Position numbers and translations under genes: made by a program. Shown here in pieces: positions 29,448 to 46,951 of a DNA stretch of 64,000 nucleotides. Location of the stretch: positions 1 to 64,000 of the forward strand of contig JABDMU010000075.1 of assembly GCA_013001285.1 (NCBI GenBank). Direction: 5' to 3'. The stretch comes from Flavobacteriaceae bacterium. Its GTDB lineage: Bacteria; Bacteroidota; Bacteroidia; Flavobacteriales; Flavobacteriaceae. The notes under the pieces are model-generated. The model was given only the letters and a program-made list of their open reading frames with translations. It had not been told where the DNA came from and did not search any database. The first letter of the stretch is position 1; each line of letters opens with the position of its first letter.

Positions 29448-30002
29448 ATGATCATGAAAAAGATAGTTGCCATATGCGTTTTATTGGTTTTTTCAATGAA
29501 TGCCATTGCTCAAGAGATCAACTGGGTCACTTTAGAAGAGGCTGTTGAACTTCAGAAAAAGAAACCAAAGAAAATAATTATGGATGTTTACACCAAATGG
29601 TGTGGGCCATGTAAGATGCTTGATAAAAATACCTTTCAAAATAAAGATGTGGTAGAGTATATCAATAAACATTATTATGCTGTGAAGTTCAATGCCGAAG
29701 GCAATGAAGAGATCACCTTTAAAGGGGCAAATTTTTCTAATCCTAATTATGATCCTGCAAAGGCAAATAGAAGAAATAGTCCGCATGAATTAACACGCCA
29801 TTTTAATGTTAGAGCTTACCCTACAATTATATTCTTAGATGAGAATCTTGAATTTTTGGCACCAATTAAAGGCTATAAGAATCCGCAGCAACTGGAATTA
29901 TATTTAAAATTGTTTAAAAATAATGATCACAAAGCCCTCACAACCCAAGAGGCTTTTAATGAATATTATACAGCTTTTAAACCTGAGTTTGCTGGCGAAT
30001 AA
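29448..30002 (+). CDS. Exported thioredoxin-family protein
   Basis: Up to 184 residues with a signal peptide (MKKIVAICVLLVFSMNAIAQ) and a thioredoxin-like fold. The redox motif is TKWCGPCKMLDKN near residue 50 and the cis-Pro region is VRAYPTIIFLDENLEF near 125. An insertion between them (NFSNPNYDPAKANRRNSPHELTR) is typical of the DUF255/thioredoxin_7-like exported group. It would reduce or isomerise disulfides in the periplasm. ATG 29448 or 29454 can start it; the second gives the standard MKK start. Convergent with comEC, 5 nt apart. Confidence 0.88.
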   Translation: MIMKKIVAICVLLVFSMNAIAQEINWVTLEEAVELQKKKPKKIIMDVYTKWCGPCKMLDKNTFQNKDVVEYINKHYYAVKFNAEGNEEITFKGANFSNPNYDPAKANRRNSPHELTRHFNVRAYPTIIFLDENLEFLAPIKGYKNPQQLELYLKLFKNNDHKALTTQEAFNEYYTAFKPEFAGE

Positions 30003-30007
30003 TAAAA

Positions 30008-32026
30008 TTAATATCTAGTGATAAAAGCTCCCTTTTTTCCAGTTTGGTGAAAAGGGATTTTTTTTAATTGACAAGTTTGTGCCCAACGGTCTTGATAGCT
30101 TCTATAATTACTCCCGTCACTAATAATAAGTTTAGGATTGATCGAATCAATCATTCGACTTAAATTTATTTTGGGTGAATTTCGAAGTAAAATAAGGTCA
30201 GGTTTGAACGTCTTAGTACCATAAACTCCTAAACTGTCTATGATTAATATTTTAAGGTCATTTATCAGATATAGATCTCTTAATGTATCCGTTTTTATGA
30301 CTTGAATATCTTCTCCTACCTTATACGTCTCTAATAACGATTGCTCAAATACTATTGAATCCTGGAGATTGCTGTGAATTTCTAAGTTGTTTTTTTCCTT
30401 TATTCCAATTACTGAATATCTGCTTTTATGAAAGACGATAAAGGCGTTGTGATACTTGTTGCAGGATATAAAAAGTAAGTAACATTGGTAGAAGATAATT
30501 GAAAGCAGTATTAATCTTATTATTACTGCTGTTTTTTTTGAGATCAATAGGATGAAAAGTGATATCATCACATAACTGAATAGCACTTGGGAAAGGTCGA
30601 AAGATATATTTTGAAAAACAAAGGCTTCTTGTTCTGAGATCCATGCAACAAAGGTGTTAAGCAATTCAATAATATATGAATATAACATCGCCAGCCATTC
30701 AGGGAGGCTATTAAAAAATGACAAAGTGAGAACCAAAAGCCCAATGCCAAGAATCGATCCCAAACATGGAATGATGACCAAATTCGAAAGAAAAAACAAT
30801 CCAGGAAATTGATGAAAATAAAAAAGGCTTAGTGGTAAAACACCAATTTGAGCCGCTAAGGTCACTGTGAAAATACGCCAATAGAAATTGATGATTTTTA
30901 GTTTAGGATGCCATATTTTTCTTAGCATTGGTTCAAGGGTCACTATAGACAGCACCGCTACATAACTCAATTGAAAGCCAACATCATACAAATAGTTTGG
31001 GTTAAACAATAGCAGCAAAAAAGCTGAAATTGCTAGAGTATTATAAACATTAGTTGGACGTTTCATTTGCATGGCGATCGCAAATAAACTAAACATGGTA
31101 ACGGCTCTAACAACCGAGGCTGAGAGTCCAGCTATAATCGAATAGGACCAGATCAAAATCAAAATTATGGCTACCTTAAGAGTATTGCCATATGTAATAA
31201 ACTCTAGTGGTTTGAGTATGTATTGAAGGATAAGCAATATCAAACCAACATGCAGTCCCGAAATTGCTAAAATATGAATGGCTCCTGCTTGTGCATAGCG
31301 CTCGTATTCTTCCTGGGATAATTCTTGCCGTTGACCTAAAAGCAATGCGTTAATGATGGCTAATTCTTCGCTTGAGAACTGGTGTTTTTTTAAATGGGTT
31401 TGAATCCGCTCTCGTAATTGGGCTGCGTAACTAAATACAGATCTTACCTGATTTTCTATTAAATACAATTGATCTGATGCTACTGTTAATTGGTGATAAA
31501 TATATTGGCGTTCCATATAGGAAGCATAATCGAACTGATAGGGATTTAAAGGCGCATTTATTTTTTGAAACTTAACCGCACTGAAATACCTCTGACCAAC
31601 TTTTGGATGATTTTGAAGCGAATCTTTAGATATATTCAATAAACATAAGCCTTTTACCCGTTTTCCGTTAAAACTGTGAATTGATATCACATATTTATCA
31701 TGAAATCGGCTTGGTTTTAATTCCTCTCTAATTGAGAAAGTAACGTCATAAGATGTATTTGTTGGGGATACAAAACTGTTTAGATAATGCAGTTTATGAT
31801 ATTTTTGTTCGTGAAGTGAAAATGACAATAGTCCAATTATAACCGTGGCAACACATAGGTATACACCAAGTAAATTGTGCAAATGAAATACGTTCTTTAA
31901 TAAGAAATTGAGTCCTATAAAAAGTAAAAGAAGACCAACCGATAAAAGAACAAGATCATCCTGATTAATGTGAAAAAATTGACCTAACCATATACCAATA
32001 ATGAGATAAATAGTTAATTTGATCAT
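30008..32026 (-). CDS. comEC: ComEC/Rec2-family DNA internalisation protein
   Basis: A 672-residue polytopic inner-membrane protein. A soluble OB-like domain (DUF4131, about 90-190) follows the first TM helices. The Competence core begins near LLLGQRQELSQEEYERYAQAGAIHILAISGLHVGLI at about 230-265, with about eight TM helices to residue 510. The C-terminal part (about 530-672) is a reduced version of the metallo-beta-lactamase-like domain without clear HxHxDH ligands. In competent species it is the ssDNA channel. I choose ATG 32026; the ORF could extend to GTG 32047. Confidence 0.9.
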   Translation of the reverse strand: MIKLTIYLIIGIWLGQFFHINQDDLVLLSVGLLLLFIGLNFLLKNVFHLHNLLGVYLCVATVIIGLLSFSLHEQKYHKLHYLNSFVSPTNTSYDVTFSIREELKPSRFHDKYVISIHSFNGKRVKGLCLLNISKDSLQNHPKVGQRYFSAVKFQKINAPLNPYQFDYASYMERQYIYHQLTVASDQLYLIENQVRSVFSYAAQLRERIQTHLKKHQFSSEELAIINALLLGQRQELSQEEYERYAQAGAIHILAISGLHVGLILLILQYILKPLEFITYGNTLKVAIILILIWSYSIIAGLSASVVRAVTMFSLFAIAMQMKRPTNVYNTLAISAFLLLLFNPNYLYDVGFQLSYVAVLSIVTLEPMLRKIWHPKLKIINFYWRIFTVTLAAQIGVLPLSLFYFHQFPGLFFLSNLVIIPCLGSILGIGLLVLTLSFFNSLPEWLAMLYSYIIELLNTFVAWISEQEAFVFQNISFDLSQVLFSYVMISLFILLISKKTAVIIRLILLSIIFYQCYLLFISCNKYHNAFIVFHKSRYSVIGIKEKNNLEIHSNLQDSIVFEQSLLETYKVGEDIQVIKTDTLRDLYLINDLKILIIDSLGVYGTKTFKPDLILLRNSPKINLSRMIDSINPKLIISDGSNYRSYQDRWAQTCQLKKIPFHQTGKKGAFITRY
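30030..30065 (+). terminator. Terminator of the thioredoxin gene, inside the end of comEC
   Basis: Stem CCCTTTT (30030-30036) / AAAAGGG (30050-30056) with a T-run to 30065, which terminates rightward transcription. It lies wholly in the last codons of the convergent comEC. Confidence 0.7.
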
Positions 32027-32090
32027 TGCGTAATTAAGCGTCTTCACATATTACAGAGTAAATATTCTACAATGCAATATAGTAAATATT

Positions 32091-38212: not shown

Positions 38213-39019
38213 ATGAAAAGAAAAACGATATACTCAATTATAGCAATTCTTATTCTAGTAGGAATTTATGGTTATAATTATTATTTAGATCATAAGGTTC
38301 AGCAAAGCCTTTATGATCAAGGTGCAGCTACCAAAACCGATACGAACACGTTCTTTTTACCGACAAGTACCACAGGACAGATCATTCATCATGATGGTTA
38401 TTCATTGTCTTATCACGAAGCTTACGAACAAGCCGAGTGGGTAGCCTATGAGCTAAAAGCATCCCATGTTACATCCAGTAATTTTAAGCGACCATATTTT
38501 GAAGTTGATAAAGCGGTGAAAACCAAATCGGCACATTGGAAGAATTATAAAAAATCAGGTTATACACGGGGTCATTTATGCCCTGCTGGCGATAGGAAGT
38601 ACAGTAAAGAAGCGCATGACGAGACTTTTTTAACCAGTAATATCAGTCCGCAATCTGGTGATTTCAATGGTGGCGTATGGAATCGATTAGAGCAAAAAGT
38701 ACGCTATTGGGCCAAACGAAACGATGGTGTATTTGTTGTGACTGGAGGCGTCTTAAAAAAAGGCCTTCCAACAATAGGTGATGAGCGAGTTGCTATACCT
38801 TCACATTTCTATAAAATACTTGTTAATTATAACAATGGCGACCCCAAAATGTTAGCCTTTTTAATACCTCATAAAGATTCAAAAAAGCCGCTTTATAGTT
38901 TCGTGGTATCCACAGACAGTATAGAAGCTCTGACTGGAATTGATTTCTTCCCACAATTAGAAGATACTATTGAAGATGAGTTAGAAGCGTCGTCTAATTA
39001 TAAGAATTGGAGTTTCTAA
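38213..39019 (+). CDS. Membrane-anchored DNA/RNA non-specific endonuclease
   Basis: A 268-residue nuclease of the beta-beta-alpha-Me type (NUC family). One N-terminal TM or uncleaved signal (about 5-25) places it in the periplasm. The catalytic motif is YTRGHLCPAGDRK near residue 120 (the DRGH-type motif with T in place of D, as in many relatives), with the metal Asn near NISPQSGDFNGGVWNRLE at about 145. It could degrade incoming DNA or scavenge nucleotides. ATG 38213, one base after the permease stop. Confidence 0.92.
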   Translation: MKRKTIYSIIAILILVGIYGYNYYLDHKVQQSLYDQGAATKTDTNTFFLPTSTTGQIIHHDGYSLSYHEAYEQAEWVAYELKASHVTSSNFKRPYFEVDKAVKTKSAHWKNYKKSGYTRGHLCPAGDRKYSKEAHDETFLTSNISPQSGDFNGGVWNRLEQKVRYWAKRNDGVFVVTGGVLKKGLPTIGDERVAIPSHFYKILVNYNNGDPKMLAFLIPHKDSKKPLYSFVVSTDSIEALTGIDFFPQLEDTIEDELEASSNYKNWSF

Positions 39020-39050
39020 AAAAAAAACGACTCAATTTGAGTCGCTTAAT
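39020..39050. terminator. Intrinsic terminator
   Basis: Stem CGACTC/GAGTCG within 39028-39044, preceded by a long A-run and followed by CTTAATTTT. It best serves the leftward DUF4136 gene, and is also possible for the nuclease gene. Confidence 0.7.
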
Positions 39051-39053
39051 TTT

Positions 39054-39596
39054 CTAATTTTCTATACCAGGTGGGTATTTTTCCATGATCCTCATCACAA
39101 ATTCTTTGATACGTTCTTCCTTTTTACTCATGCTTTGTGAAAGATATCCACGTCCTACACCTTGCCATACCAATTCCCTTTTTGAAGCGTCTATGAGGTC
39201 GATATATAAAGAGCCTTCTGTGGAGGTACTTACATGACCAAAGCCGCCTCCCCAGTACCATGGACTCCAGCCCCAGCCATAGCCGAAGCCGCCCCAGCCG
39301 TTGTTATAAACGTTTAATTTTTCTCTTGATTTGGTAAAAATACTTACCAAAAGGTCTGGGTTTTCTGATTTGGTAAATCCTTTGGCTAATAATTCGGCTT
39401 CAATAGCACGAAGAATCCTGCGTTTGTCAAGGTCGCTAATTTCAGCCTTATCAATTCCTGTTTTGTAAAAAGCAAATGTCTTGTAAGCATTAAAATCTGC
39501 CTGTTTGTCGTAGTCTGTGGCTACACGAACCGATACACACGAAGTGATCAATACGGTGAATACCAAAACCATCGCGGTTGTTAATAGTTTTTTCAT
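39054..39596 (-). CDS. DUF4136 lipoprotein
   Basis: A 180-residue lipoprotein with lipobox VLITSCVSV (Cys near residue 20). It has the DUF4136 pattern: VRVATDYDKQADFNAYKTFAFYK at the N-terminus, DLDKRRILRAIEAELLAKGFTKSENPDLLVSIF in the middle and LYIDLIDASKRELVWQGVGRG near the end. A Gly/Trp/Tyr-rich insertion (NNGWGGFGYGWGWSPWYWGG) lies near residue 105, common in this family. Function is unknown. It stands 22 nt after the urocanate hydratase gene on the same strand. Confidence 0.9.
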   Translation of the reverse strand: MKKLLTTAMVLVFTVLITSCVSVRVATDYDKQADFNAYKTFAFYKTGIDKAEISDLDKRRILRAIEAELLAKGFTKSENPDLLVSIFTKSREKLNVYNNGWGGFGYGWGWSPWYWGGGFGHVSTSTEGSLYIDLIDASKRELVWQGVGRGYLSQSMSKKEERIKEFVMRIMEKYPPGIEN

Positions 39597-39617: not shown

Positions 39618-41783
39618 TTAGGTGTTAAATAATTTTTCATCTACACTATTTGGAAGGGTTACCTTTAAATTAGGTTCGGCCTCCATGGCGCGTTCAATAG
39701 CAAATATTGCTTCTTCATTTCTTGCCCAACTTCGTCTTGCAATACCGTTATTAACGTCCCAGAATAACATCGATTTCAGACGTCTTTCTGCGTCACTAGT
39801 ACCATCAAGAACCATACCAAATCCGCCATTTATAACTTCACCCCATCCTACGCCACCACCATTATGAATGCTCACCCAGGTGGCACCGCGAAAGCTATCA
39901 CCAATAACATTGTGAATGGCCATATCTGCTGTGAATTGCGATCCGTCATAAATATTGCTGGTTTCTCTGTATGGAGAATCAGTTCCAGACACGTCATGAT
40001 GGTCGCGTCCAAGGATTACGTAACCTATTTCACCGGCATGTATAGCATCATTGAAAGCTTTTGCAATCTTCATACGCCCTTCAGCATTTGCATATAAAAT
40101 TCGAGCCTGAGATCCTACTACAAGATTGTTGTCCTGAGCGCCTTTGATCCATTTTATGTTATCGGCCATTTGCTGTTGAATTTCTCTAGGCGAATTTTCT
40201 TTGATCTCCTCAAGCACTTTACAAGCAATGGCATCTGTTTTTACCAGATCTTCGGCATCACCTGAAGCGCAGACCCATCTAAATGGCCCAAATCCATAAT
40301 CGAAACACATTGGTCCCATGATATCCTGAACATAACTTGGGTATTTGAAATCGATACCATTTTCCGCCATAACATCGGCTCCTGCTCTAGAAGCTTCCAA
40401 AAGGAAGGCATTACCATAATCAAAAAAATAGGTGCCGCTAGCGGTATGTTTATTTATTGCTTCGGCATGTCGTCTTAAGCCTTCCCGAACTTTTTCTTTA
40501 AATAGTTTAGGGTTGTTTGCCATCATCTCATTCGCTTCTTTAAATGAAAGTCCGACCGGATAATAACCACCAGCCCATGGATTGTGCAATGAGGTTTGAT
40601 CAGAGCCAAGATCGATGTAAATATTTTCAGTAGCAAAAGCTTCCCATAGGTCAACCACATTACCATGATAGGCTATGGAAACAACTTCATTTTGTGTTTG
40701 TGCAATTTTAACTCGGTCTACCAGTGCATTGATATGTGAATAGACTTCATCAACCCAACCTTGCGAATGTCTTGTTTGAACGGCTTTTTCATTTACCTCG
40801 GCACAAACTGTAATGCATCCAGCTATATTACCGGCTTTTGGTTGTGCGCCACTCATGCCGCCTAATCCTGCAGTTACAAATAATTTGCCCTTTGGTGACG
40901 TGTTGATTTTTCTAAAACCATTCAAAACGGTAATGGTTGTGCCGTGAACGATGCCCTGTGGACCAATATACATGTAGCTGCCTGCAGTCATTTGACCATA
41001 CTGAGTAACGCCTAAAGCATTGTATTTTTCCCAGTCATCTTGCTTCGAATAATTGGGGATCATCATCCCGTTAGTAACCACTACTCGAGGCGCATCTTTA
41101 TGTGAAGGAAATAACCCAAGTGGATGCCCCGAATACATGACCAAAGTTTGTTCTTCGGTCATTTCGGCCAAATATTTCATGGTTAGTCTGTATTGCGCCC
41201 AGTTTTGAAATACGGCCCCATTCCCACCATAGGTAATCAATTCATGGGGGTGTTGTGCTACGACATGATCTAGATTGTTTTGAATCATTAACATGATAGC
41301 TGCAGCCTGTTTTGATCTTGCGGGATACTCATCTATAGGGCGGGCATACATTTTATAATCTGGTCGGAACCTATACATATAGATTCGTCCGAAGGTCTCT
41401 AATTCATATTTAAATTCACTTAGTAATTCTTCATGATGAGTCGCGTCAAAATAGCGCAAGGCATTTTTTAAGGCCAATTTTTTCTCTTCTGAAGTTAATA
41501 TGTCCTTACGTTTTGGAGCATGACTTACTTCTGGATCAAAAGGTTTAATTAAAGGTAAATCAGAAGGAATGCCTTCCAAGATTTGATCTTTAAAAGTCAT
41601 AGTCGAAGTTTGCATTTTGTGTTGTTTTAAACTTGTTGAATTTTTATTAAAACCATATGGACAATGCCTGCAATTGCTTTCACAACAATAACCTCGTTTA
41701 AGTAGGTATTGCTCAGTAAAGACCCTGTATCCTTCGGGCGATAAATAAAAATCTCCTTTTTCAATCGGGACAATTTTCTTCAT
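39618..41783 (-). CDS. hutU: Urocanate hydratase with N-terminal DUF5522 domain fused in frame
   Basis: A 721-residue frame. Residues 57-721 are urocanate hydratase, the second step of histidine breakdown, with YGGNGAVFQNWAQYRLTMK, AGLGGMSGAQPKAGNIAG for NAD binding, and the catalytic region FRWVCASGDAEDLVKTD. Residues 1-56 are a DUF5522 domain: GDFYLSPEGYRVFTEQYLLK then RGYCCESNCRHCPYGF. DUF5522 is normally a free small protein, and hutU normally starts at the equivalent of Met57 (ATG 41615). A TAA at 41629-41627, in the +1 frame, lies where the first gene should stop. So this is either a true fusion or two genes merged by a 1-nt indel. Confidence 0.9.
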   Translation of the reverse strand: MKKIVPIEKGDFYLSPEGYRVFTEQYLLKRGYCCESNCRHCPYGFNKNSTSLKQHKMQTSTMTFKDQILEGIPSDLPLIKPFDPEVSHAPKRKDILTSEEKKLALKNALRYFDATHHEELLSEFKYELETFGRIYMYRFRPDYKMYARPIDEYPARSKQAAAIMLMIQNNLDHVVAQHPHELITYGGNGAVFQNWAQYRLTMKYLAEMTEEQTLVMYSGHPLGLFPSHKDAPRVVVTNGMMIPNYSKQDDWEKYNALGVTQYGQMTAGSYMYIGPQGIVHGTTITVLNGFRKINTSPKGKLFVTAGLGGMSGAQPKAGNIAGCITVCAEVNEKAVQTRHSQGWVDEVYSHINALVDRVKIAQTQNEVVSIAYHGNVVDLWEAFATENIYIDLGSDQTSLHNPWAGGYYPVGLSFKEANEMMANNPKLFKEKVREGLRRHAEAINKHTASGTYFFDYGNAFLLEASRAGADVMAENGIDFKYPSYVQDIMGPMCFDYGFGPFRWVCASGDAEDLVKTDAIACKVLEEIKENSPREIQQQMADNIKWIKGAQDNNLVVGSQARILYANAEGRMKIAKAFNDAIHAGEIGYVILGRDHHDVSGTDSPYRETSNIYDGSQFTADMAIHNVIGDSFRGATWVSIHNGGGVGWGEVINGGFGMVLDGTSDAERRLKSMLFWDVNNGIARRSWARNEEAIFAIERAMEAEPNLKVTLPNSVDEKLFNT

Positions 41784-41820: not shown

Positions 41821-42156
41821 ATGACAATAATGATGATTTTAGTACTCAAATATTTAATCCCAAAAGGTTACATCGGACTTACGGTCTTTCCATTTATTTT
41901 CATTAAGAACGGAGGTTTAAAAACGAATGCATCGCTAATTAATCATGAGAAGATCCATTTACAACAACAACTCGAATTATTGATCATTCCTTTTTTCATT
42001 CTCTATGGTTTAGATTTTATTATTGGCCTGATATACTATCGTAATTGGCATTTGGCATATAAAAACATTATTTTTGAACGTGAAGCCTATGCAAAAGAAA
42101 AAGACCTAGATTATTTAAAATCTAGGCCTTTTTGGGCATTTTCAAAATACGTTTAG
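41821..42156 (+). CDS. Small membrane protein with HExxH motif
   Basis: A 111-residue protein with two hydrophobic segments (about 5-28 and 53-73). Between them lies LINHEKIHLQQQLELL, a zincin-type HExxH, and after the second is FEREAYAKEKDL, where the Glu could be a third ligand as in gluzincins. It looks like a minimal membrane metallopeptidase or metal-binding protein; I know of no characterised member. A terminator hairpin lies inside its last codons (42105-42133). ATG 41821 or one of the next two Met codons starts it. Confidence 0.72.
   Translation: MTIMMILVLKYLIPKGYIGLTVFPFIFIKNGGLKTNASLINHEKIHLQQQLELLIIPFFILYGLDFIIGLIYYRNWHLAYKNIIFEREAYAKEKDLDYLKSRPFWAFSKYV
42098..42133. terminator. 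Terminator hairpin inside the coding end of the HExxH gene
   Basis: Perfect 8-bp stem CCTAGATT (42105-42112) / AATCTAGG (42119-42126). Rightwards it is followed by CCTTTTT and leftwards by TCTTTTTCTTTT. It can end the convergent T9SS gene, but rightward termination would stop about 20 nt short of the HExxH gene's stop codon. Confidence 0.7.
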
Positions 42157-42160
42157 TGCA

Positions 42161-45100
42161 CTACTGAACCACTTTTTTGATTTTATATTTGCCGTTGCTT
42201 AAAGTTGCCTTTACGATATAGGCGCTTTTCGATAGTTGTAAATTATTAAGGGTTTGTTGTTGCGAGTTCACATCTTTCAGATCAATGATCACACGTCCAA
42301 TAATATCATAAATAATTATAGATTCTATAGGCAAACTACCAGAGGATACATGAATACCCTGTTGATCACCTCGTATAATAAGATCTGAATTATCTGTAAT
42401 TTCGTCAGTTCCAAGTGCTTCATTAGTATATCTTAAAACAAATCGGTCATCAAAGGTACCTGCTTCAGAAGTAAAGCCATAAGGCGAAACTCTTAAATCA
42501 TGAATCACATCACTGTAAGTATCTTCAAGATATATTGCTTGCTGCGCATCTGAGAATAATCCATCTACCGAATTTATTGCAATTCGATAAGTTTCATTTA
42601 CAGGCACAGTAAATCCAATTGGCACCAGATCCTCTTCAACAAATGGAATTGGTCGTCCTTGAATAGACATTTTCTTTTCAACTGCCAAGGAGTAAAAACT
42701 AATAGGAGTGCCAGGATATTCATAACCATCATATAGTCGGTCGTCATCTAGTGTCGCACCTTCAATATAACCTACTAATAAAGATGTTGCAAAATCATCT
42801 GGAGTAATGAGATCTAACCAAATTCGATGACGTTCAATGTCGTTATTATAAGGATTACTTCCAGGAGGACCATAAAAAATACTGTTAGTATTGCTTGCAC
42901 TTCGCATACTGTTGTTAAAAGTAATGGTCTCAGATTGGGTACCGGTATCTAACATCAATACGAAGAAGGCCTGACCAGCAGCTAAATTACCATTAAATCC
43001 AGGAGGATTCGGTCCCGTCCAGTTATTATCGATATAATCATTAGGATTGTAATTATAAACAAAATCCTGATAGAACGGACTATTCTCAGTATTACTTGGT
43101 GGATTTTGATGAGTCCATAAATAAATAGTGCCATCAATTGTATTGTTTGCAGGATTCGTTATAAAATCTGAATAGGAAACAGCTGAAGGAAATGGATTTC
43201 CTACCAGGTTCCAGTTATCATCCTGAGCCGTTACCATGGTATCACCCGGTCCAATATAATCAGCTCCAGTATAAGTACCTCGCTCGATCGATCTTGTGAT
43301 AACTCCATTTCTTGCTGTACCAACAAATAAAGGTGTATCTGCTGTTGGTGTACCCGCAATATCTCTAATAATGTAGCCTTTTCCAGGTAACATTGGATTA
43401 TCATTTGAATTCAACCATTGTCCATAATTATTAGCAACAGTAGGATCCCATTCCCAAATAAGGCCAGGATTAGATCCTGGAGAAACAAGCTGAACATTTT
43501 GTCCATCAACTGGCGATGACCAATACACATAATCTTGAGGGCCGACACCTGTTACGGTTCGTTCCATTCTAATATCTCCTGAATTGCTAAACGTATCATC
43601 AATTTGAACCAAACTACCTCCTGATCTTATTAAAAAGGTTCCGCCTGCGTTAACAACAACATCTTCAGTTACGGTAAGCACTTTGTCAGAAGCGATCTCG
43701 AGCGATGCACTTGGCCTAACAGTAAGGTTAAGACATTCACCAGGTGTTGGTGGTGTAGGAGCACCTGGATAGGTTAATATCGGACTAGGTATTACATTAT
43801 TAATGATCACACAATCAGCGGCGGTTGGTACAATTCCAGTATTCCAGTTACCTGGAGTATACCAATTTGAAGTACCAGCACCTGCGGTCCATTCTGTACA
43901 AGTGGTACAGTTTGAAATCACATAATCTGCTTGAGTTCTCGGGCCTCCACCTGGGCATCCGGCCCAGAAAGAAGTTGTTCCTGCGGTATTGGTGTCAGTT
44001 AGGCCTGATCCAGCAACTCCAACAGGATCAAATACAGCTCCAGAGCCAATAGCAGTGCCACCTGTTGCTGTTGTATACCATTCTACATCAACAGTTGTTG
44101 TTGATACATTCCAAGTAAAAGGTCCTGTATGTGTAATGTTTCCAAAACTGAATATTGTTGTATATAGTCTGTAATTTACCCCAGCAGTTAAATTGGCGGT
44201 GATCTGAGGATCTAAAGCAGGTCCATCATCATCATCACCTGCTACCCATCCAGCACTACAAATACCAGGGGTAAAACCGATATCCTGATTCACAATATAA
44301 CCCATACCATCAAAGTATGGAGATGGTGTATCCATTGCAAAAACATAAGTTCCACTTACTGTTACAGTAAAATCATGAAAGGTATAATTCGAGGTTTGAG
44401 GATCGAATGAACAAGCATCACCACTTTGAATAAAGATCTCTGGTCTTGAGGCAACGGAATCGGTTGCAGCATTTAAAGCACCAGCAATAGCCCCTCCAAA
44501 TGGAACCGTCGTTCCTGCAGAGGTACAAGTGATATCTGTAGTTAAAGGTTCGCTTGGATCCCCTACACAAATGCTCACCCCGTTGGTTCCTACAATGGTT
44601 GTTGTCACACATAGTCCAAATGAACCATTATTATTATTTCCGTATTCCCACATTCTTACATATAAGATTTCTCCTGGCGTTTGACCAGTTAATGTAATCG
44701 AAGACATTAAACCGTTCGCACTGCTGTCATCATCACATTGAATGAGCGTTAGCGCGCCACAGGTTCCAGAATAAACTGCCATTCCGCTATCAGTCACAGT
44801 TCCAGTTTGAGAATCGATGATAAGATCTCCAGAAGGTGGAACTTCCACATAAAACCAAAGATCGCCACCTTGATAGTTAGCACATCCAGGATTTGCTACA
44901 CCACTATCACTAGCTGCTGCATTATTATAAGTAGTGTAATTGCAAGTAACATCTGGAATCAATTCAATAGCACCAACACAAGCATCATTTGGTGGTGGAG
45001 GTGGAGGTGAACCGATACAGATATCAAAAGAAGAAGTTTGTCCTGAACTAGCTGTCCAAGAATATACTTGAACAAAATATGTATTACCAATTGTTAATCC

Positions 45101-46951
45101 AGATAATGAGCTTGAATTTGGATCTGAACACAGCAATGCAGGTCCGGTAATTGATCCACAAGGGCCATCATAAATGGCGTGATATAGATCTGTTGTACCA
45201 CCTGTGATATTATAAAGATCAATCGTATGCGATGTAGACGTCGCTGTAAATTCAAACCAAACATCGTCATCATCAGTTCCAAAGCAAGCACTCGCAACAA
45301 TACCTGTATTGGTAGCATATTCTATTGTCCCCGAAGAAAAATTAGTACAGCTTTGATCAGGGTTTGGTGTCACTACAGTGGCCGTACAAGGCTCATCATT
45401 TGGCGGCGGCGGCGGTGGTGTGCCTATACAAATATCAAAATCTGTTGTTTGACCTGCAGTGCCTGTCCAAGAATACACCTGAACATAATAGGTGTTACCA
45501 ATGGTCAATCCGCTGACCAAACTTGAATTTGGATCAGAACACACAAGAGCAGCACCAGGAGCGGCACAGCTTCCGGCATAAACAGCATGATAAAGATCTG
45601 TAGTTCCGTTCACAATATTAATAAGATCAACTGTATGTGTTGTTGCTGTTGCTTGAAATTCGAACCATACGTCATCATCTGAGGTTCCTCCACAAGCATC
45701 TGCTCCTGGAGAATTTGTTGCAAACTCGATAGACCCTGATCCGAAAACGGTACAAGACAGATCAGAATTGGTTCCGATCACAGTGGCTGCAGCACATTCA
45801 TCATTAGGTGGAGGTGTCACGGGGCTACATGATCTTGATATCGTAAAATCTCCAGTTGTGGTATTTCCGTTAGCATAATGAGCAATATAAACATAGTAAG
45901 TTGTCGCATTAACTGTGATAAATGTATAGGATTCTATACCTCCAGATAAAGCAGAATCTTCACAAGTGATGTTTGTTAGGGTGCCACAATTTCCTGAGAC
46001 AACGGCCATTTCATGGTCATATCCCGGAGCTGCATCTACAGTTATCGTTGTTTGATCGCCATCGCCAACAAAGGTATACCAAACACCATAATTACCTATA
46101 CTGCATCCATTGCTAGTAGCGATATCAGATGTGCCAATCGTAGTGCCGGCAAGATTCGTTGTTCCACATGGCAGAGCTGTGGCATTCGCACAAAGGTCGT
46201 TAGCAACTGTTCCAGCGGTTGTGAATGTTCCCGAAGGGGACCAGGAGCTAAAATTTCCAGAGCCGCAATCACTTCTAACAAATACATAATATGTGGTGCT
46301 TGGAGCTAAGCCTCCAACATTCGCAGTAAGGGCTGTTGTTGCTGTACCAGCTCCTCCAGGAGCTACATTAACCGTAGAAACTACATATTCATATCCTGTT
46401 GAAGGAACGGGAGTAGCTGCATTCCAATTTATGGTTGCAGAATTTGATGTTATGGCTGTTGTTGCTGTTAAAGTTGGTGGATTGCAAACTACAGGAGTAT
46501 TATAAACACAAATTTCACCATTCAAGTTTGTGTCACTACCACTTCGTTCAACCCTAACTCTATATCGTATACCTATAGTGGTTGCATACACAATTGTTTC
46601 GACAACCCCAACACCACCGGTATCTGAACAAGCGATACTTCCCATAGCTGCATTACATGCACCTGTAAAAAGGGTTAAAATTCCATCCCCTAATGTTGGT
46701 GAATAATTAATAGTTGTAGAATTACTTGTTGCATCAAACCATCCCCATATATCATCAACCGAAGTTTCACCACACGATGCACCAGTTGCATCCCAGTAAT
46801 TCGAATTACTGCCATTATTCCATGTTTGGTATACACAACTCGCTCCAACAGTGATTTCTCCTCCATTGTTATCATCACAACCATTTCGTTGTGAAAATAT
46901 AGGGGAGCTAACAAATATTATAAAAACTAATAAAAGTAATTTTCTTATCAT
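42161..46951 (-). CDS. Giant modular T9SS-secreted protein (FN3, pre-peptidase-like repeats)
   Basis: A 1596-residue protein with a signal peptide (cut near SSPIFSQ). An N-terminal beta-sandwich is followed by an FN3 domain at about 155-245 (PPTLTATTAITSNSATINWN ... SWSPSGTFTTAG). Then come four related PPC-like modules at about 250-790, each opening with N-D-x-C or PPPPPPND and ending in ...DICIG or similar; modules two and three are near copies. Later regions hold a GEVxx-like beta-helix piece and an ice-cream-cone region found in such proteins. The C-terminus is a T9SS type A-like sorting signal ending KIKKVVQ. It is probably a cell-surface adhesin. Substrate unknown. Confidence 0.9.
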   Translation of the reverse strand: MIRKLLLLVFIIFVSSPIFSQRNGCDDNNGGEITVGASCVYQTWNNGSNSNYWDATGASCGETSVDDIWGWFDATSNSTTINYSPTLGDGILTLFTGACNAAMGSIACSDTGGVGVVETIVYATTIGIRYRVRVERSGSDTNLNGEICVYNTPVVCNPPTLTATTAITSNSATINWNAATPVPSTGYEYVVSTVNVAPGGAGTATTALTANVGGLAPSTTYYVFVRSDCGSGNFSSWSPSGTFTTAGTVANDLCANATALPCGTTNLAGTTIGTSDIATSNGCSIGNYGVWYTFVGDGDQTTITVDAAPGYDHEMAVVSGNCGTLTNITCEDSALSGGIESYTFITVNATTYYVYIAHYANGNTTTGDFTISRSCSPVTPPPNDECAAATVIGTNSDLSCTVFGSGSIEFATNSPGADACGGTSDDDVWFEFQATATTHTVDLINIVNGTTDLYHAVYAGSCAAPGAALVCSDPNSSLVSGLTIGNTYYVQVYSWTGTAGQTTDFDICIGTPPPPPPNDEPCTATVVTPNPDQSCTNFSSGTIEYATNTGIVASACFGTDDDDVWFEFTATSTSHTIDLYNITGGTTDLYHAIYDGPCGSITGPALLCSDPNSSSLSGLTIGNTYFVQVYSWTASSGQTSSFDICIGSPPPPPPNDACVGAIELIPDVTCNYTTYNNAAASDSGVANPGCANYQGGDLWFYVEVPPSGDLIIDSQTGTVTDSGMAVYSGTCGALTLIQCDDDSSANGLMSSITLTGQTPGEILYVRMWEYGNNNNGSFGLCVTTTIVGTNGVSICVGDPSEPLTTDITCTSAGTTVPFGGAIAGALNAATDSVASRPEIFIQSGDACSFDPQTSNYTFHDFTVTVSGTYVFAMDTPSPYFDGMGYIVNQDIGFTPGICSAGWVAGDDDDGPALDPQITANLTAGVNYRLYTTIFSFGNITHTGPFTWNVSTTTVDVEWYTTATGGTAIGSGAVFDPVGVAGSGLTDTNTAGTTSFWAGCPGGGPRTQADYVISNCTTCTEWTAGAGTSNWYTPGNWNTGIVPTAADCVIINNVIPSPILTYPGAPTPPTPGECLNLTVRPSASLEIASDKVLTVTEDVVVNAGGTFLIRSGGSLVQIDDTFSNSGDIRMERTVTGVGPQDYVYWSSPVDGQNVQLVSPGSNPGLIWEWDPTVANNYGQWLNSNDNPMLPGKGYIIRDIAGTPTADTPLFVGTARNGVITRSIERGTYTGADYIGPGDTMVTAQDDNWNLVGNPFPSAVSYSDFITNPANNTIDGTIYLWTHQNPPSNTENSPFYQDFVYNYNPNDYIDNNWTGPNPPGFNGNLAAGQAFFVLMLDTGTQSETITFNNSMRSASNTNSIFYGPPGSNPYNNDIERHRIWLDLITPDDFATSLLVGYIEGATLDDDRLYDGYEYPGTPISFYSLAVEKKMSIQGRPIPFVEEDLVPIGFTVPVNETYRIAINSVDGLFSDAQQAIYLEDTYSDVIHDLRVSPYGFTSEAGTFDDRFVLRYTNEALGTDEITDNSDLIIRGDQQGIHVSSGSLPIESIIIYDIIGRVIIDLKDVNSQQQTLNNLQLSKSAYIVKATLSNGKYKIKKVVQ

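Follow-up and report, generated by a model that had tools for sequence, protein, structure and literature searches.

According to a review, ends of transcription are often found within a neighbouring gene's coding sequence (PMC7154746). Bidirectional terminators shared by convergent genes are known from B. cereus (PMC5381666) and Rickettsia (PMC3027695), as is the compensatory evolution of such terminators, and E. coli arfA and B. subtilis brfA are cases of in-frame terminators (PMC8012679). In the lambda tR2 system, an engineered E. coli reporter, a terminator reached full efficiency only when it lay more than 27 nt past the stop codon, and ribosomes repressed terminators placed late in coding regions, where a terminator retained 40% of its efficiency (PMC4824070).

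We analysed a hairpin in a 64,000-nt stretch of Flavobacteriaceae DNA (the window). It lies in the coding end of a gene for a small protein with an HExxH motif (the HExxH gene), opposite a convergent gene for a T9SS-secreted surface protein (the T9SS gene). An earlier note on this DNA had suggested that rightward termination at the hairpin makes expression of the HExxH gene depend on tmRNA, as for arfA, and had named a simple terminator shared with the T9SS gene as the alternative. The alternative is the one that gained support, in a strand-biased, coding-embedded and family-wide form: the hairpin is very probably an intrinsic terminator that is embedded antisense in the HExxH coding end and belongs to the convergent gene read leftward (here the T9SS gene).

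Judged by its sequence, the HExxH/T9SS case operates as the bidirectional terminators of convergent pairs do and falls outside the arfA/brfA group. As in the former (PMC5381666, PMC3027695), an A-tract, a GC stem and a T-tract appear to serve at least one of two tail-to-tail genes, and the stem evolves by compensatory and G·U changes; unlike in those terminators, it sits wholly within a coding sequence, shows a one-strand bias and seems to have altered codons and residues of its host gene. With arfA and brfA (PMC8012679) it shares a terminator-like hairpin shortly before a stop codon, so that nonstop mRNA is possible. However, there the sense mRNA is targeted and the tail is disposable, whereas here the antisense RNA appears to be selected and the tail is conserved; the ArfA tail is unstable and hydrophobic, while that of the HExxH protein is confidently folded in a predicted model. 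The E. coli mscL/arfA pair (PMC10070815) is similar in that one gene's 3' UTR extends over the 3' coding end of its convergent partner, and each strand has stem-loops. For mscL/arfA, antisense regulation is reported, whereas the hairpin described here accompanies whichever of several unrelated genes lies opposite.

A search of open-licence PMC papers found no report of a terminator embedded in the HExxH gene. The locus is a clean example from nature of a protein tail encoded on one strand where the other would carry the neighbour's transcription stop.

The hairpin and the two genes

The hairpin is built on a 36-nt palindrome in the window sequence, with A5 on the left, T5 on the right and a 6-nt loop (Table 1). 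It covers the HExxH-gene codons for EKDLDYLKSRPFW and lies entirely within that coding sequence rather than between the two convergent stop codons, which are only 4 nt apart. The perfect 8-bp stem reported in the earlier note is exact (42105-42112 paired with 42119-42126 on the plus strand). Of the T-runs that the note placed on both sides, the right one stands (42129-42133, followed by GGG, serving a plus-strand transcript), but the left one is an A-run on the plus strand (42098-42102), i.e., a U-tract for a leftward transcript. The distance to the HExxH stop codon, given there as about 20 nt, holds for the outer stem; from the 8-bp stem it is 27 nt.

Table 1. Features of the HExxH/T9SS locus, in window coordinates
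Feature	Position	Strand	Basis
Host gene, 111-aa HExxH protein (HEKIHLQQQLE...FEREAY)	41821-42156	+	ORF, alignment, predicted structure
Putative leftward terminator U-tract TTTTTCTTTTGC, which overlaps the outer A-U pairs of the stem	42086-42102	-	Sequence; U-tail scores in relatives
Putative leftward terminator hairpin, 15-bp stem 42133-42119 with 42112-42098, loop 42113-42118	42098-42133	-	Folding, covariation, conservation with a close convergent neighbour
Less stable rightward form: stem of 8 bp at 42105-42126, A42104·C42127 mismatch, T5 42129-42133 then GGG	42105-42133	+	Scan, folding
Spacer from T9SS stop codon to stem, 27 nt	42134-42160	-	Sequence; spacing in relatives
T9SS-secreted surface protein gene, convergent; its transcript is proposed to end at the hairpin	42161-46951	-	ORF, domain matches

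The two strands do not fold equally. On the plus strand, six further pairs lie beyond the A·C mismatch, giving a fold of -13.0 kcal/mol (z -5.9); on the minus strand the same mismatch is a G·U pair, so the 15-bp stem runs without a break and reaches -17.9 kcal/mol (z -7.2). For neither strand did any of 200 shuffles fold equally well. A terminator-pattern scan called the hairpin on both strands, with 8 pairs on the plus strand and 15 on the minus, and the leftward reading has the sequence features of a terminator: a stable GC-containing hairpin, a U-tract directly 3' of it and the stop-to-stem spacing. Terminator-like sites are not rare locally (10 per 9 kb vs 5.7 +/- 2.7 in shuffles), and what goes beyond chance is the strength and conservation of this hairpin, rather than its mere presence.

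The small HExxH ORF is a real gene, with relatives in 144 of the 199 family-mates that were searched (each genus represented by one genome) and in 38 named loci. In an alignment of 26 of the proteins, HExxH, Q49/Q50 and E52 are invariant and FExEAY is nearly so. The AlphaFold2 model has a mean pLDDT of 92.8 (89-94 in the C-terminal blocks), and its last predicted helix (residues 106-110) lies past the hairpin codons. Pfam, NCBIfam and PDB sequences, rescue factors included, gave no above-threshold match, and Foldseek with the model returned nothing at E <= 10. BlaR1 (M56) was the sole structural match, a weak one (VIA-align Z 3.3 and 2.7), and PF05569 was touched by one of the 26 members (E 0.017), so kinship with BlaR1/M56 is a lead only. 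The T9SS gene matches a T9SS-associated galactose-binding-like domain and fibronectin III and, weakly, T9SS sorting tails.

Neighbour arrangement in relatives

We compared the hairpin among relatives of the HExxH gene with different downstream neighbours. The sample comprised 158 loci, of which 150 gave a tblastn match; after removal of L033, L067 and L068, 147 remained for the counts; some 40 weaker, partial or second-copy places lie outside it. For each locus, the same 39 nt were taken via the protein alignment and scored at 14 fixed pairs, without a hairpin search, and a hairpin was called when at least 10 of the 14 were Watson-Crick in the fixed register. Two further genera were treated as separate genus sets, whose counts omit L187, L189 and L190 (no motif) as well as L163 and L191-L193, which repeat loci already in the sample. 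Copies of the gene broken by stop codons were seen at L067, L068 and L187/L189 (G009, G005, G228).

The next ORF is co-directional at 108 of the 147 loci, often overlapping, and convergent at the other 39. When a convergent stop lies within 45 nt, the hairpin is present at 25 of 30 loci, so the conservation in homologues that the earlier note asked about is there. By comparison, it is present at 0 of 9 loci whose convergent gene lies farther off; for co-directional neighbours the count is 3 of 86 when the gene is close and 0 of 22 when it is distant (> 60 nt). It is missing from all 31 loci with a distant downstream neighbour, although each of them has the HExxH gene. Set against the 3 of 117 other loci, the close-convergent count gives a Fisher value of 4e-20, for rows that are not independent. 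In the genus sets, 24 of 25 close-convergent loci have at least 10 pairs and all 25 have at least 9, whereas three co-directional loci of one of these genera (one of them a second copy) have 8, 4 and 4 pairs and no hairpin (0/3).

Because the protein tree (96 columns) is poorly resolved, locus counts over-state independence. Supported branches force only 2 changes of hairpin state, and an independent-pairs test had only 3 pairs on such branches, with a mean of 1.8 in the same direction, 0.0 in the opposite direction and 1.2 showing no difference.

There are exceptions on both sides. L078, L132 and L106 have the hairpin despite a co-directional neighbour; at L078 and L132 it is intact, perhaps as a relic of a neighbour change. 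Among close-convergent loci, no hairpin was found at L018 and L066, L127 has 9 pairs plus a minus-strand hairpin, and at L151 a hairpin straddles the stop codon. L122 has another in-CDS hairpin (1475-1512, CGCCCAA/TTGGGCG plus a T-run) 10 nt before the stop codon with a convergent gene opposite, apparently an independent solution.

In a family scan of ten neighbour proteins (nine of the 39 convergent and one of the 108 co-directional), the opposite genes belonged to no single family: they included T9SS-tailed proteins, an S74-chaperone-tailed protein and several without a family match. The one co-directional neighbour scanned (L069) is a PLP-dependent D-cysteine desulfhydrase/ACC-deaminase-like enzyme. 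With opposite genes of several families, the pattern across these sequences indicates that the hairpin goes with the end of the HExxH gene but needs a gene opposite. The distance from the neighbour's stop codon to the core stem is also narrow: 22-34 nt at 47 of 51 loci (37, 45, 57 and 74 at the remainder), with a minimum of 22 and a median of 29 nt in 26 family loci and 28 nt in 25 genus loci. These medians match the requirement for more than 27 nt in the E. coli test system (PMC4824070).

Strand bias and coding constraints

A G·U pair in the RNA of one strand corresponds to an A·C mismatch in that of the other. This signature can tell which RNA selection sees, and the same test is applicable to any hairpin in coding DNA, suspected arfA-like genes included. 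Non-Watson-Crick core pairs at close-convergent loci are A·C on the plus strand in 40 cases and G·T in 4; the genus sets give 44 vs 1 and the co-directional loci 147 vs 101 (Fisher 2.7e-5). Since the co-directional loci also lean towards A·C, part of the bias is coding background. Counted per locus, A·C outnumbers G·T by 24:1 at close-convergent loci (5 ties), 23:0 in the genus sets (2 ties) and 47:25 at co-directional loci (39 ties).

Stability points the same way: among 26 relatives, the minus strand has the more stable core in 23 and the higher U-tail score in 22. Covariation was assessed on 53 distinct rows, all close-convergent loci, with or without hairpin. On the minus strand 92.7% of cells are paired and 11 of the 14 pairs have changed on both sides, exceeding 500 of 500 shuffles and all slid controls. 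Plus-strand pairing, conditional on the minus-strand stem, gives mixed results and no consistent extra selection. Together, the pair bias and the greater minus-strand stability indicate that the minus-strand RNA is the one under selection, with the relatedness of the loci as a caveat here too.

The hairpin is accompanied by rare codons and particular residues in the HExxH protein (GAC CTN ... S-AGG-S/P). Comparing close-convergent with co-directional loci, Arg is encoded by AGG at 25/30 vs 9/108, Asp by GAC at 23/24 vs 8/47 and Leu by CTN at 24/26 vs 29/72; that Arg is followed by Ser or Pro at 26/30 vs 36/108 and preceded by Ser at 17/30 vs 11/108. When the codons were synonymously recoded with local codon usage, minus-strand pairing stood out (p < 0.01) at 23 of the 30 close-convergent loci; the co-directional and far-convergent groups gave 3 of 108 and 0 of 9, respectively. 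The plus strand tested alone gave p < 0.01 in 18 of 30, and since both stems are nearly the same DNA, this codon test cannot separate the strands. From these enrichments and the recoding result, we infer that the neighbour's terminator has left its mark on the codons and apparently on the amino acids too, which suggests that terminator needs can dictate an adjacent protein's codons and even its residues.

Past the hairpin, loci with close-convergent and with co-directional neighbours share one pattern, F..F..Y-hydrophobic: Phe occurs five residues after the Arg in 90% and 93%, and Tyr/Phe eight residues after it in 100% (n=30) and 94%, respectively. Within one genus (19 loci), pN/pS is 0.57 after the hairpin, 0.32 upstream and 0.19 in the hairpin codons, values indicating that constraint after the hairpin is relaxed, yet present. 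Since these residues are conserved and, in the model, folded, the full-length HExxH protein is evidently made, and this counts against an obligate nonstop product.

Explanations and frequency in the genome

If the hairpin is the leftward terminator, its position could follow from spacing. A terminator would need some 25-30 nt past the stop codon to clear the last ribosome, and with only 4 nt between the stops, the only room for it would be the final codons of the opposite gene. Leftward RNA polymerase would halt in the U-tract near 42098. Rightward polymerase would mostly read through and full-length HExxH protein would result, because the mRNA-strand stem has the A·C break and a trailing ribosome would still be translating across it. 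The lambda tR2 translation-repressed terminators could explain both the leftward spacing of ~28 nt and the possible rightward read-through; the ribosome-coupling step in Flavobacteriaceae is drawn by analogy with that E. coli reporter (PMC4824070). The C-terminal codons of the HExxH gene would have adapted to the embedded terminator. An extension, which as a whole we think unlikely, is that the site acts like a valve open in one direction: a single 36-bp stretch would end leftward transcription and let translated rightward transcription through, owing to the A·C/G·U strand asymmetry and a masking ribosome, with nonstop messages going to trans-translation only when HExxH translation lags. As the valve would be encoded by the HExxH gene and serve unrelated surface-protein genes opposite, the end of the gene would also offer swapped-in neighbours a docking site already in place, the cost being that part of the HExxH protein sequence is fixed.

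The nearest rival is a truly bidirectional terminator, in which a sizeable share of HExxH messages also end within the coding sequence and the nonstop mRNAs are cleared by trans-translation as a tolerated cost. It overlaps the leftward-terminator reading and differs solely in the amount of rightward termination; we consider it possible, if somewhat doubtful. The A-tract, stem and T-tract are symmetrical, the plus-strand hairpin is itself fair (-13.0 kcal/mol, z -5.9, T5 run), the median plus-strand core in relatives is -6.8 kcal/mol, and no other rightward terminator-like site lies within 200 nt past the focal HExxH stop. The 40% efficiency held by a late-coding terminator in the test system (PMC4824070) also fits. 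A tmRNA gene was found in the genome, so nonstop messages, if produced, could be handled. Yet the plus-strand core is the weaker one in 23 of 26 relatives and is nearly abolished (weaker than -3 kcal/mol) in five of the 26: L076 (-0.4), L044 (-1.4), L079, L133 and L072; the lack of consistent extra selection on plus-strand pairing, given the minus-strand stem, also speaks against it.

The same plus-strand hairpin before the sense stop codon, and the same tmRNA gene, could serve an arfA/brfA-like switch, in which the HExxH mRNA is made nonstop and protein accumulates only when tmRNA is overwhelmed; E. coli arfA is also tail-to-tail with its neighbour, mscL (PMC10070815). This role, proposed in the earlier note, now looks very improbable. 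The hairpin is found at 0 of 31 loci where the same gene has a distant downstream neighbour, it is the minus strand that is kept paired while the plus-strand hairpin is nearly broken in 5 of 26 relatives, the C-terminus past the hairpin is conserved and folded in the model, and the protein matches no named family in the databases searched, rescue factors included. The case is a caution that not every in-frame terminator means nonstop regulation. About as improbable is a minus-strand hairpin that does not end transcription but chiefly shields the 3' end of the neighbour's mRNA, or serves as an RNase III site following read-through: the U-tract directly past the stem and the distance of 22-34 nt from the stop codon at 47 of 51 loci are both terminator-like. 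It is hardly credible that the palindrome is a coding by-product, arising by chance from the codons of the conserved motif EKDLDYLKSRxFW. Homologues conserve this region well and its F/W codons supply a T-run for free, but synonymous recoding is beaten (p < 0.01) at 23 of 30 close-convergent loci vs 3 of 108 co-directional loci in the same protein family, and the strong enrichment of AGG, GAC and CTN is confined to loci with a close convergent neighbour.

How common such terminators are was surveyed in 414 kb of the same genome, the window included (355 ORFs); the ORF calls were crude, and some of the tight convergent pairs may be artefacts of them. Antisense terminators were found in the final 90 nt of 5 ORFs and sense terminators in that of 2, with the HExxH gene among each. 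In-CDS terminators occur at 2 of 31 convergent pairs with a gap of at most 28 nt (the HExxH/T9SS pair and 30002/30007), whereas all 12 pairs with a gap of 32-126 nt have a terminator inside the gap. In-CDS placement is therefore uncommon, but not unique. Most of the 31 tight pairs sampled had no detectable terminator, so one is not obligatory there.

At the other in-CDS pair (30002-30067), the stops are 5 nt apart and a rightward terminator-like hairpin (dG -13.4) lies in the opposite coding sequence, 30007-32047; the HExxH/T9SS layout may thus have another example here. The usual intergenic placement is seen at 39025-39047, where a strong terminator lies in the 34 nt that separate the convergent ORFs 38213-39019 and 39054-39596. 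Finally, 39618-41783 on the minus strand is a single ORF combining an N-terminal DUF5522 with a full urocanase, either a fusion or an ORF whose start is set too far upstream.
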